A program made the translations under genes and the position numbers. From Arthrobacter sp. NEB 688 (GTDB lineage Bacteria; Actinomycetota; Actinomycetes; Actinomycetales; Dermatophilaceae), in the NCBI RefSeq assembly GCF_013201035.1, contig NZ_CP053707.1, positions 2,790,001 to 2,854,000 of the forward strand: a stretch of 64,000 nt of DNA, read 5' to 3'. Below the pieces are notes generated by a model. The model saw only the letters and a list, made by a program, of their open reading frames with translations, did no database searches and was not told where the DNA came from. Numbering within the stretch: position 1 is the first letter of the stretch; each line of letters begins with the position of its first letter. Positions 19,396-23,518 of this stretch are shown here, piece after piece.

Positions 19396-21669
19396 TCAGG
19401 CCGTCCGGACCGGCGCGAGGATCGCCTCGAGGTCGGCGAGCGTGTACGGCTTGCTCAGGTAGTCGTCCATCCCCGCCGCGAGCATCCGCTCCCGGTCGCC
19501 CTCGGCCGCGTTGGCGGTGAGGGCGATGACCCGCGGCTGCGGCCCCGGGCGGACCCGCAGCTGCTCCGTGGCACGCACGCCGTCGAGGTGGGGCATGTTG
19601 ACGTCCATGAGGACGACGTCGTACCGGTTGGCGGCCAGCGCCTGGAGCGCCTCGATGCCGTCGCCCGCGACGTCGGCCTCGATGCCGAGCCGGCGCAGCA
19701 TGTGGATGGCCACCATCTGGTTGACCGGGTCGTCCTCGGCGAGCAGCACCCGCAGGTCCTCCGGCGTCTCCTCGATGACCACCTGCTCGTCGACGAGGTC
19801 GCCCACCCCCGTGCCGGCCGAGCCGACGGCGCAGCCGAGGACCGGCAGCGCGAAGGTGAAGGTCGAGCCCTCGCCGACGGTGGAGTCGACGCGGATCTCG
19901 CCGCCGAGCCGCTGGGCGATGCGGGCGCAGATGGCCAGGCCGAGGCCCGTGCCGCCGTGCGTGCGCGTCGTCGACGCGTCGCCCTGGGCGAACGCCGTGA
20001 AGATGCGCGAGAGCCGGTCGGCGGGGATCCCGGCGCCGGTGTCGACCACCTCGAGGACGAGGGTGCCGGGCGCGGTCTCGCTGCCGGGGCGCAGGGACGG
20101 CTCCGGGCTCTGGTAGCTGGCCCGGATGTGCACGCCGCCGCGGTCGGTGAACTTCAGGCCGTTGCCGACGAGGTTGATGAGCACCTGGCGCAGGCGGACG
20201 AGGTCGCTGCAGACGAGCTCGGGGACGTCGGGGTCGACCGACCACCAGAGCGAGAGGCTGCGTCGCTCGGCCTTGGTCGTGAACATCGTGCAGACGTCCT
20301 GGATGAGGGCGCGCACGTCGGTCGAGGTCGACTCCATCTCCAGGTCGCCGCTCTCGAGGGCGCTGAAGTCGAGGATGTCGTTGACGATGGCCAGCAGGTG
20401 GCGGCCGCTCTGGTGGGCGGTGCTCACGTACGACCGCTGCTGGTCGTCCAGCGCGGTGTCCTGGAGCAGGTCGGTCAGGCCGATGACCGCGTTGAGCGGG
20501 GTGCGGATCTCGTGGCTCATGCTCGCGAGGAAGCGCTGCTTGGCCTCGGCCGACTCCTCCGCGGTCTCCTTGGCCCGACGCAGGTTCTCCTCGGTGAGGC
20601 GGCGGTTCGTGATGTCGGTCTCGACCCCGACGAAGCCGGTCACGACGTCGCCGTCGCGGATCGGCGAGACGTCGACCGAGACCCAGTACTTGCTGCCGTC
20701 CTTCGCGTAGTTGAGGACCTCGGCGGTGAAGGGCTCCTGGCGCCGGATGGCCTCGCGCATCTCCCGGACGGTGGCCGGGTCGGTGTCGCGACCCTGGAGG
20801 ACGCGACCGGGGCTGCGGCCCTCGACGTCCTCGATCGTGTAGCCGGTGCGGCGGGTGAAGGCGTCGTTGACCCACTCGACGTGGCCCTTGGGGTCGGTGA
20901 CGACGACGAGGTTGTCGGTGGCCTGGACGGCGACCGACGTCCGCTGCAGCTGGGCCTGCGCCTCGCGCAGCCGCACCGTCTGGGCGAGCTGGGCGCGACG
21001 GGCCTGGTAGAGGACGTAGACCATCCCGGCGACGAGCACGGCGAGCGCGACGAGGGTGAGGACGAGCCCGCCGAGGAGCAGCCGGGTGTCCTTCACGAGG
21101 CCGGCGGTCGCCGCGTTCGCGACCGCGGCGTTCTGCTTGCGGACGTTCTCGGCCTCGGAGACGAGCGTGTTGTACTGCCCCTCGAGCTCCTGGATCTCGC
21201 TGCCGAGGCGGCCCCGCTCGGCGATGGTCATCGACGTGGGGTCCGCGACGAGCGCCTGGACCTCGCGGTCCGGACCGTCGCGCCAGACGGCGGCGAGCTC
21301 GCGGGAGCGCGCGAGCAGGCGCGCGTCACCGAGGGTGCGGCCCTGGTAGTCGAGCGTGCCCTCCTGGATGCGCTGCGCGGCGAGCGAGCGGCGCAGGTCG
21401 AGGACCTCGGGGTCGATCCTCCCGCCGGCGCCGTGGACGAGCGCGTCCTCGAGCCGCAGGAGCTCGCGCTGGGCCTGGCTGAGGGTCCGCACGTTGCCGT
21501 CGACGAGGTCCTGGGTCAGCTTGACGTTCGTGCTGAGGGCGTGCGTCGCGTTGATCGTGAGGATGCTCAGGCCGACCGTCCCGCCGACGGCGAGGACGGC
21601 GGGGATGACGAGGGCGACCAGGATCCGCGTCCGGCCCTCCGCGAACTCCCACAGGCCCGAGAGCTTCAC
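19396..21669 (-). CDS. Hybrid sensor histidine kinase/response regulator
   Basis: Membrane hybrid kinase of 757 residues: membrane helix 15-40, an extracytoplasmic helical region of about 155 residues (four-helix-bundle type), membrane helix 198-222, PAS domain about 245-358 with a PAC end, HisKA with phospho-acceptor H386 in SMSHEIRTPLN, HATPase with N box at about 500-510 and G boxes DTGAGIP and GGTGLGLAI, then a C-terminal receiver with D689 in VVLMDVNMP and lysine in LSKPY. Phosphate should pass H386 to D689, then to a separate Hpt protein; an Hpt gene lies 760 bp upstream, divergent. GTG at 21669 overlaps the lipoprotein stop as GTGA, showing coupled translation. Confidence 0.92.
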   Translation of the reverse strand: MKLSGLWEFAEGRTRILVALVIPAVLAVGGTVGLSILTINATHALSTNVKLTQDLVDGNVRTLSQAQRELLRLEDALVHGAGGRIDPEVLDLRRSLAAQRIQEGTLDYQGRTLGDARLLARSRELAAVWRDGPDREVQALVADPTSMTIAERGRLGSEIQELEGQYNTLVSEAENVRKQNAAVANAATAGLVKDTRLLLGGLVLTLVALAVLVAGMVYVLYQARRAQLAQTVRLREAQAQLQRTSVAVQATDNLVVVTDPKGHVEWVNDAFTRRTGYTIEDVEGRSPGRVLQGRDTDPATVREMREAIRRQEPFTAEVLNYAKDGSKYWVSVDVSPIRDGDVVTGFVGVETDITNRRLTEENLRRAKETAEESAEAKQRFLASMSHEIRTPLNAVIGLTDLLQDTALDDQQRSYVSTAHQSGRHLLAIVNDILDFSALESGDLEMESTSTDVRALIQDVCTMFTTKAERRSLSLWWSVDPDVPELVCSDLVRLRQVLINLVGNGLKFTDRGGVHIRASYQSPEPSLRPGSETAPGTLVLEVVDTGAGIPADRLSRIFTAFAQGDASTTRTHGGTGLGLAICARIAQRLGGEIRVDSTVGEGSTFTFALPVLGCAVGSAGTGVGDLVDEQVVIEETPEDLRVLLAEDDPVNQMVAIHMLRRLGIEADVAGDGIEALQALAANRYDVVLMDVNMPHLDGVRATEQLRVRPGPQPRVIALTANAAEGDRERMLAAGMDDYLSKPYTLADLEAILAPVRTA

Positions 21670-22289
21670 TTGACCACGATCTCCTTGAGCTGCCACGTCC
21701 ACCGCGGGTCGTAGGTCACCGGGTCGAGGTCGAAGCTGTCGGTCGGGTAGACGATGCGGGTCGGCCCGTAGTGCTCGACGGTCATGCGCCGGCCGTCGAC
21801 CGAGGTGGCGAGCATCACCGGGTAGGCCGAGGCGTCCGAGGCGGGGACGTCGACGGCGTAGTCGTTGAGGGCGAGCGTGTGCAGCGTGGCGCCCTCCTCG
21901 ACCCCGACGTAGTCGAGGAGCGAGCGCAGGAGCACGCCGCGGAAGGTGACGCGGTGGCCCTCGGCCTGCTTGTCGTCGACGGAGTACTCGACGAGGCCCA
22001 GGCGCTCGATGGTCGGCAGGTCGAGCCGGACCGAGCCGCCCCGGGTGGTCTTGCCCGAGAAGGTGAGGACGACCTTCTCGGTGGGGGCCGGCACGGGGTC
22101 GCCGGGGCGCAGGCTGGGCTGCGAGATGACGGTGTAGCCCGTCGGGGCCGCCGCCGCGGTGGTCGTGGTGGTCGACGTGGCGGGCCGGGAGCCGGCGGCG
22201 GCCGGGGAGGCGCAGCCGGCGAGCGGCAGGACGGCGAGGGCCGCCAGGGTGGCGGCAGCGACGAGCGCGCGAGAGGGGGTGGTGGTCAT
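21666..22289 (-). CDS. Lipoprotein with sulfite-oxidase-like (SUOX) fold
   Basis: Predicted exported lipoprotein, 207 residues. A signal peptide (residues 5-25) ends in a lipobox LPLAG before C26; a Ser/Thr/Ala linker follows. The rest (VVLTFSGKTTRGGSVRLDLP, the FRGVLLRSLLDYVGV segment, LNDYAVDVPASDASAYPVML, and a tail WTWQLKEIVV) looks like the molybdopterin-dependent oxidoreductase/SUOX fold as used in small periplasmic proteins beside sensor kinases. After C26 there is no cysteine, so the molybdenum-ligating residue is missing and catalysis is unlikely. The gene is coupled to the hybrid kinase, so a sensory role outside the membrane is inferred. ATG at 22289 is chosen for the signal peptide; TTG at 22334 is an alternative. 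Confidence 0.75.
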   Translation of the reverse strand: MTTTPSRALVAAATLAALAVLPLAGCASPAAAGSRPATSTTTTTAAAAPTGYTVISQPSLRPGDPVPAPTEKVVLTFSGKTTRGGSVRLDLPTIERLGLVEYSVDDKQAEGHRVTFRGVLLRSLLDYVGVEEGATLHTLALNDYAVDVPASDASAYPVMLATSVDGRRMTVEHYGPTRIVYPTDSFDLDPVTYDPRWTWQLKEIVVK

Positions 22290-22334
22290 GGTGACGACGA
22301 TGACGGGGGAGTTTCCATTCTCGACGACTGCCAA

Positions 22335-22779: not shown

Positions 22780-22806
22780 CACGCCTCCCCCTCGTGAGGG
22801 GTCAGC
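22775..22806. terminator. Nested stem-loop between Hpt and regulator
   Basis: An outer stem GCTGAC/GTCAGC joins the two opposing stop codons (22777-22779 and 22802-22804), and an inner CCCCTC/GAGGGG hairpin lies between. It would terminate both convergent genes. Confidence 0.5.
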
Positions 22807-23518
22807 CGGCGGCGGCCGAGGCGTCGACCGGGGCGGCCGGCTCGAAGCGGTAGCCGTAGCCGCGCACCGTCCGGATGTGCCCCGCGCCGCCGGCGCTCTC
22901 GCCGAGCTTGCGGCGCAGGTTGCCCAGGTGCACGGAGATGACGTGGTCGTCGCCCACCCAGTTGGGGCCCCACACGGCGGCCATGAGCTGGTCGCGGCTG
23001 AAGGTGCGCCGGGGCGCCCCGGAGAGGGCCTCGAGGATGTCGTACTCGGTTCTGGTGAGGTCGACGACGTCGCCGTGCAGGCGGACCTCGCGCGCCTCGG
23101 TGTCGAGGGTCAGCGGGCCGAAGCGGCGCAGGTCGGTCTCGACGACGCTGACGCGGGGGCGCCGGCGCATCGCCCGGATCCGGGCGGAGAGCTCGCGCGG
23201 GGAGAAGGGCTTGGTCACGTAGTCGTCGGCGCCGATGGTCAGGCCGAGGACGCGGTCGAACTCGTCGCTGCGGCCGGTGACCATGACCACGTAGCAGTCG
23301 GAGAACTCACGGATCCGACGGCACACCTCGAGGCCGTCCATCTGCGGCAGCGAGATGTCCAGGAGGACGACCTCGGGCTCGTGGGTGCGCGCGGCCTCGA
23401 CTCCGGCGGCGCCGTCGGCCGCCTGCACGACACGGAAGCCCTCGGACTCCAGCAGCGACGCCGCGACGCGGGCGAACTCCGGCGAGTCCTCGACGACGAG
23501 TGCGGTGGGTCGGCTCAT
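22802..23518 (-). CDS. OmpR-family response regulator
   Basis: Two-domain DNA-binding regulator of 238 residues. The receiver (1-120) has D54 in LLDISLP and K103 in VTKPFSP; the winged-helix domain (about 130-227) ends with the standard GYGYRFEP. ATG at 23518 has GAGGAGA 6 nt upstream and TACGGT further up as a -10. No orthodox kinase gene is adjacent in the same operon, so it is the likely final acceptor of the hybrid kinase/Hpt relay. It may bind the CTCAAG repeat at 22335 and control the lipoprotein-kinase and Hpt genes. Confidence 0.92.
   Translation of the reverse strand: MSRPTALVVEDSPEFARVAASLLESEGFRVVQAADGAAGVEAARTHEPEVVLLDISLPQMDGLEVCRRIREFSDCYVVMVTGRSDEFDRVLGLTIGADDYVTKPFSPRELSARIRAMRRRPRVSVVETDLRRFGPLTLDTEAREVRLHGDVVDLTRTEYDILEALSGAPRRTFSRDQLMAAVWGPNWVGDDHVISVHLGNLRRKLGESAGGAGHIRTVRGYGYRFEPAAPVDASAAAG

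Follow-up and report, generated by a model that had tools for sequence, protein, structure and literature searches.

The question raised by this locus is what a lipoprotein with the fold of a molybdenum enzyme, but without a cysteine to hold the metal, does directly upstream of a histidine kinase. The window analysed here is a stretch of 64,000 nucleotides of Arthrobacter sp. NEB 688 (contig NZ_CP053707.1, positions 2,790,001 to 2,854,000), whose sequenced genome (G000) is a single contig of 4.08 Mb. Within it, positions 19396-23518 hold four genes, for the lipoprotein, a hybrid histidine kinase, a free-standing histidine phosphotransfer (Hpt) protein and an OmpR-family response regulator. An earlier note had taken these four genes to be one sensor pathway, and its coordinates and the residues that it named (C26, H386, D689, H60 and D54) were all right on re-reading. 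From sequence comparison and structure prediction we propose that this cassette is probably an actinobacterial phosphorelay of the PruR-DTB kind that senses a pterin. What is directly established is the family and the predicted fold of the lipoprotein, the order of the domains, and the joint inheritance of the four genes. That the four genes constitute one pathway is well supported; the ligand, the phosphotransfer and the regulated genes we infer.

The lipoprotein is a PruR-type protein

The lipoprotein gene (21666-22289, minus strand) codes for 207 amino acids from an ATG and matches Oxidored_molyb in Pfam (6.2e-8). A motif scan showed that the export signal is a lipobox, LAGC, and not a plain signal peptide, and that its C26 is the sole cysteine, so that the protein has no molybdenum-ligating cysteine. 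When 21666-22301 was used as the query in phmmer, the matches to 7rkb (3.4e-20) and 7kos (2.1e-19) were far better than that to sulfite oxidase (0.029), and the best solved relatives were four entries deposited as pterin-binding or Oxidored_molyb-domain proteins. The AlphaFold model, made with 23 of the 27 rows of our alignment, had a predicted local distance difference test score (pLDDT) of 87.7. In Foldseek, ranks 1 to 7 for this model were all PruR crystal chains, from Agrobacterium, Klebsiella (with neopterin) and two from Vibrio, with TMt values of 0.82-0.92, and sulfite oxidases started at rank 8. The best TM-score was that of the neopterin-bound Klebsiella PruR, 7rkb (TMt 0.92, root mean square deviation 1.6). 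The sulfite oxidase (SUOX) fold without a molybdenum-ligating cysteine, which the earlier note had suggested, is therefore borne out by the predicted model.

PruR lacks the molybdenum-ligating cysteine, and its Asn102, Tyr104 and Trp160 have been named and linked to pterin binding in a review (PMC13259868). In the register to 7kos counted from the phmmer alignment, these residues of A. tumefaciens PruR correspond to N142, Y144 and W199 of the lipoprotein. W199 is found in 27/27 rows of the alignment, Y144 in 26/27 (phenylalanine in one) and N142 in 24/27 (aspartate in three). By its sequence and its model, the lipoprotein is a protein of the PruR-type pterin-binding family with the SUOX fold, and it is predicted to bind a pterin. 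It had been thought to be either a ligand or a redox sensor; the match to PruR speaks for the ligand, and as to the redox alternative, the review states that evidence for a chemical reaction of pterins with PruR is lacking (PMC13259868).

The kinase, the Hpt protein and the regulator

The kinase gene (19396-21669, minus strand; 757 amino acids) starts with a GTG that is overlapped by the TGA of the lipoprotein gene, an arrangement that agrees with the two-gene operon, PruR followed by its kinase, of PruR-DTB systems. Its product consists of a hydrophobic stretch, a DcpA-like receptor domain, a second hydrophobic stretch (both stretches identified by eye) and then PAS, HisKA, HATPase_c and receiver domains, the last four of which are found by Pfam (the receiver as Response_reg). 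The best NCBIfam match is TorS (3.6e-115, 386 bits), which is below the model cut-off of 676.5. The receptor-domain profile of the hybrid kinases was compared by hhalign with other receptors and matched the proteobacterial PruR-linked receptors with 93.5% probability (reversed control, 4.0%) and the actinobacterial GGDEF/EAL-type receptors with 75.3% (reversed control, 0.5%). The receptor part of the window's kinase was modelled as all-helical (pLDDT 87.6; predicted TM-score, pTM, 0.63), with the conserved E69 in the helix 60-78, and its weak Foldseek matches, none of them at E<=0.001, include helical sensor domains such as those of NarQ and McpN. The full WX7E motif is present in 5/7 proteobacterial receptors. 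In the actinobacterial receptors its acidic residue is retained as E or D in 20/20, and in all 7 hybrid kinases, including that of the window, which keeps the E, the column of the tryptophan holds an arginine. Because the WX7E motif is thus incomplete, the actinobacterial form is a variant of PruR-DTB.

The Hpt gene (22429-22779, plus strand; 116 amino acids; Pfam Hpt 5.4e-12, scored on 22441-22779) points away from the lipoprotein gene and towards the regulator gene (22802-23518, minus strand), which codes for 238 amino acids with Response_reg and Trans_reg_C, a winged-helix DNA-binding domain. The best NCBIfam match of the Hpt protein is also TorS (9.3e-7, 27 bits). All four phospho-acceptor residues are intact, namely, H386 within SHEIRTP of HisKA, D689 within the receiver, H60 of the Hpt protein and D54 of the regulator, as the His-Asp-His-Asp (H-D-H-D) architecture put forward in the earlier note implies. 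The phospho-histidine is aligned in 10/10 Hpts and D54 is invariant in the six regulator orthologues aligned. A separate Hpt gene lies near PruR in 7/7 actinobacterial PruR-hybrid-kinase loci, and a C-terminal Hpt is fused to the PruR-linked kinase in three of the four proteobacterial kinases scanned (Hyphomicrobiales L039, Rhodobacteraceae L043 and Onishia L045, not L038). In the host genome the sole further Hpt above the Pfam cut-off sits in a CheA; a second, weak match (0.009) lies in a frame without an Hpt recognisable by eye.

The regulator gene is linked in 5/7 hybrid-kinase loci. In G108 an orthologue (68%) is found about 13 kb from the cassette, and between Hpt and PruR lies a gene that is cupin-like by eye. 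In G844 (L137:5166-9968) PruR, the hybrid kinase, a Rec-EAL protein and Hpt follow in a row and no OmpR regulator is linked. Since the Rec-EAL protein, a regulator of the c-di-GMP phosphodiesterase type, stands in the place of the OmpR regulator, the output of the relay can differ between cassettes.

The cassette is gained and lost as one unit

The four genes are inherited together. Of 12 genomes in the genus, 3 have the full cassette, 1 has a deletion remnant, 7 have an empty site and 1 (G330) gave no match to the flank gene. PruR was found in the host, in Phycicoccus sonneratiae (G318) and in Phycicoccus sp. HDW14 (G324), both genus relatives of the host, which would accordingly be a Phycicoccus too, in a search of 10 of the 12 genomes; we take PruR to be absent from the remaining two (G333 and G334) because their sites are empty and they gave no Hpt match. 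Besides the window's own, an Hpt orthologue (57-62%) is present in these same two relatives only, and so is the 72% orthologue of the regulator; the next best regulator match in the genus is 57%, and G324 has both kinds. At seven of the eight PruR-free flank sites a SpoU methylase gene adjoins the DUF3037 gene, and nothing between them matches any of the four genes. The deletion remnant, at the same site in G268 (L091:6282-7746), retains residues 16-57 of the regulator followed by residues 276-755 of the kinase.

Outside the genus the four-gene set was found in G218 (L099) and, in another order, in G480 (L079). The earlier claim that the four genes form a unit is hence upheld by the neighbourhood count, and a chance neighbourhood was rejected because the genes are kept together in other genera. 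As to the flank itself, at 18214-19373 of the window a gene for a HipA-like kinase (HipA_2) overlaps the DUF3037 gene, and the two genes border the site of the cassette in those genomes of the genus that were inspected; the HipA-like gene was found in 11/12 genomes of the genus.

PruR across Actinomycetota

A profile search of a class sample of 394 genomes gave 25 genomes with a match at E<=1e-10, 13 of them with PruR-like proteins that reach the C-terminal tryptophan and 12 with weaker matches, which were treated as SUOX enzymes. In a phylum sample of 396 genomes, 68 had a match, and the nine with a strong one were inspected; one of the nine (G918, L142) looks proteobacterial and may be contamination. 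In the family of the window PruR occurs in 5/149 genomes, and its distribution is therefore patchy.

Lipoboxes, scanned with start codons chosen by us, are present at 21/23 actinobacterial PruR loci vs 0/9 proteobacterial ones; the start of L141 is uncertain, L031 was read from its annotated start, and the proteobacterial L040 and L043 were entered without their N-termini, their longer frames showing no such box. What lies downstream of PruR falls into a few types. At 7/23 loci (the window, L032, L036, L037, L079, L099 and L137) it is a hybrid kinase, with an Hpt gene close by, and at one (L089) a simple kinase. At 14/23 loci a membrane receptor of the GGDEF or GGDEF-EAL-like type follows the lipoprotein PruR (L041:7848-11052, L033, L080-L088, L138, L140 and L141), GGDEF-EAL having been confirmed by Pfam for L041 of Cellulomonas marina and the others assigned by tblastn with the L041 protein or by reading. 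At the last locus, L139, the contig breaks off within a receptor whose DcpA-like match is weak. An unrooted tree of 31 rows places the whole proteobacterial set on one side of a branch, and likewise the set linked to GGDEF/EAL receptors, which includes L089 (100/99); the kinase-Hpt set lies between them, forming one group in 46% of bootstrap trees.

Proposed mechanism and alternatives

Anchored to the membrane at its outer face, the lipoprotein would bind a small pterin, probably a reduced one, as its homologs suggest. Loaded or unloaded PruR would then dock on the extracytoplasmic domain of the kinase and set its activity. Phosphate would pass from H386 to D689 and on to H60, which is what the intact residues and the relatives with these domains in one protein point to, and from the Hpt protein to D54 of the OmpR-type regulator, which would control genes and possibly act on the cassette's own promoter as well. 

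Several observations weigh against this reading. Those that concern the sensor are that the tryptophan of WX7E is missing at its column in 20/20 actinobacterial receptors, including the window's kinase, that the receptor model has no match in the PDB at E<=0.001 in Foldseek, and that a search at E<=1e-10 for a FolM-type reductase, a possible source of a tetrahydropterin, gave none in the host, G318, G324 or G218 (G108 and G480 gave matches at the level of SDR proteins, 3.3e-11 and 4.7e-14); V. cholerae, too, is without PruA (PMC13259868). The altered receptor signature and the missing reductase would fit the same relay with a lipoprotein that senses something other than a pterin, such as another ring compound, a protein or an envelope partner, the SUOX fold being a docking scaffold. 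In addition, several proteobacterial rows have, in our reading, a tryptophan at the column of the enzymes' cysteine, which the window's lipoprotein does not. We nevertheless consider a non-pterin signal unlikely because the pterin-linked Asn, Tyr and Trp are retained and the best TM-score is that of a neopterin-bound PruR.

The other observations concern the output. The host has a second hybrid kinase, with GAF/PAS and two HATPase stretches (G000:C1:189111-190463; L145:1279-4338), and G290, which is without the cassette, has a weak Hpt-like match (2.4e-4) inside an open frame of 1404 amino acids. The remainder have to do with a tandem 11-bp direct repeat, CTTGAG-N5-CTTGAG, at 22335-22351 (minus strand) upstream of the lipoprotein gene, which is a probable OmpR-family operator. 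The window, G108, G218 and G844 have the exact repeat upstream of PruR, and in all of these but G844 it is 44-45 bases from the start codon; shuffles of the window give a chance expectation of 0.05 matches with up to one mismatch. It is absent upstream of PruR in 3/7 cassettes (G318, G324 and G480), and G844 has it although its cassette lacks a linked OmpR regulator. One further exact copy each occurs in the host and in G318, beside another OmpR-type regulator, and near-matches in 13 genomes show no enrichment relative to the reversed pattern (58 vs 50). An operator unique to the cassette's regulator is weakened by the copies elsewhere, and we regard the repeat as probably an OmpR-family site; it suggests that PruR is controlled by a member of this family, which need not be the cassette's own regulator. 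No sigma-70-like promoter or terminator was found in 22200-23700. Elsewhere in the host, at G000:C1:1808387-1808440 (L158), two 11-bp tandem repeats of the CTTGAG type, one on each strand, lie in the interval that separates another OmpR-type regulator from a divergent gene, and similar pairs occur in G318 and G324.

An alternative is that PruR and the kinase are a pair whose Hpt protein serves other receivers, the OmpR regulator being a mere neighbour. The Rec-EAL protein of G844 and the distant regulator of G108 are in its favor, and so is the number of regulator-like proteins in the host, with 17 matches at E<=1e-20 when the regulator is counted. We think this quite improbable since the regulator orthologue and Hpt occur in the genus only with the cassette and the linkage is seen in 5/7 loci, also in the other gene order of L079. 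That the lipoprotein is a degenerate molybdenum enzyme or a protein handling the molybdenum cofactor, with the kinase next to it by accident, was rejected as extremely improbable in spite of its Pfam match to Oxidored_molyb, because the mature protein has no cysteine, PruR matches better than any SUOX enzyme in phmmer and Foldseek, the gene overlaps the kinase gene and is gained and lost with it, and the weaker SUOX-type matches of the class survey keep the HC motif in 11/12 (L075 was not readable in the frame used).

Returning to the pterin-sensing phosphorelay, a wider and tentative idea, which may well be wrong, is that Actinomycetota read extracellular pterins through lipid-anchored PruR, the outputs being either c-di-GMP enzymes or transcription by way of a split phosphorelay. 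With no FolM-type reductase found in the host, what the cassette detects may be pterins that neighbours release. A pterin-sensing cassette here would extend pterin signalling, described for Proteobacteria, to Gram-positive actinobacteria, and lipidation would show how a sensor based in the periplasm can operate where there is none. Through the split Hpt, the two types of output and the cassette's gain and loss, the pairing of PruR with its receptor becomes comparable across phyla, and the cassette is a compact system for asking by gene deletion whether bacteria signal with pterins.

Comparison with known systems

The earlier note had regarded the system as undescribed, and this did not hold: PruR linked to a TorS/BaeS-like kinase (PruR-DTB) has been described for Proteobacteria, where the two partner types are DcpA (cyclic di-GMP, c-di-GMP) and DTB (a sensor kinase, with PAS and receiver or without them) (PMC13259868). 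The main text of that review has no word starting with actinobacteri or actinomycet, and the primary paper, Greenwich et al. 2024 (PNAS), may list actinobacterial PruR. The literature searched had nothing joining pterin, histidine kinase, phosphorelay and Hpt and, in the search on PruR, no description of a lipoprotein PruR with a GGDEF/EAL receptor in Actinomycetota. The actinobacterial, lipid-anchored form with a split Hpt thus appears to be undescribed.

The cassette resembles PruR-DTB in that the PruR gene is directly upstream of a kinase with a DcpA-like extracytoplasmic domain, PAS, HisKA, HATPase and receiver, and differs from it in that PruR is a lipoprotein, the tryptophan of WX7E is absent, Hpt is a separate divergent gene, the OmpR regulator is part of the cassette and the host is an actinobacterium. 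With PruA-PruR-DcpA of Agrobacterium tumefaciens it shares a SUOX-fold sensor, predicted here to bind pterin, that feeds a membrane receptor, whereas its output is a kinase relay and not c-di-GMP, and no FolM-type reductase accompanies it at the threshold given above. TorS/ArcB-type tripartite phosphorelays have the same H-D-H-D order; here the Hpt is detached and the sensor is a separate lipoprotein. The SUOX-family molybdoenzymes, such as sulfite oxidase and YedY, have the same fold, but here the domain is short and has no molybdenum-ligating cysteine. What looks new against these systems is the lipobox-bearing PruR of Actinomycetota, beside GGDEF/EAL receptors or a hybrid kinase, and, in the kinase branch, the separate Hpt gene, the inheritance as one cassette and the WX7E motif without its tryptophan.

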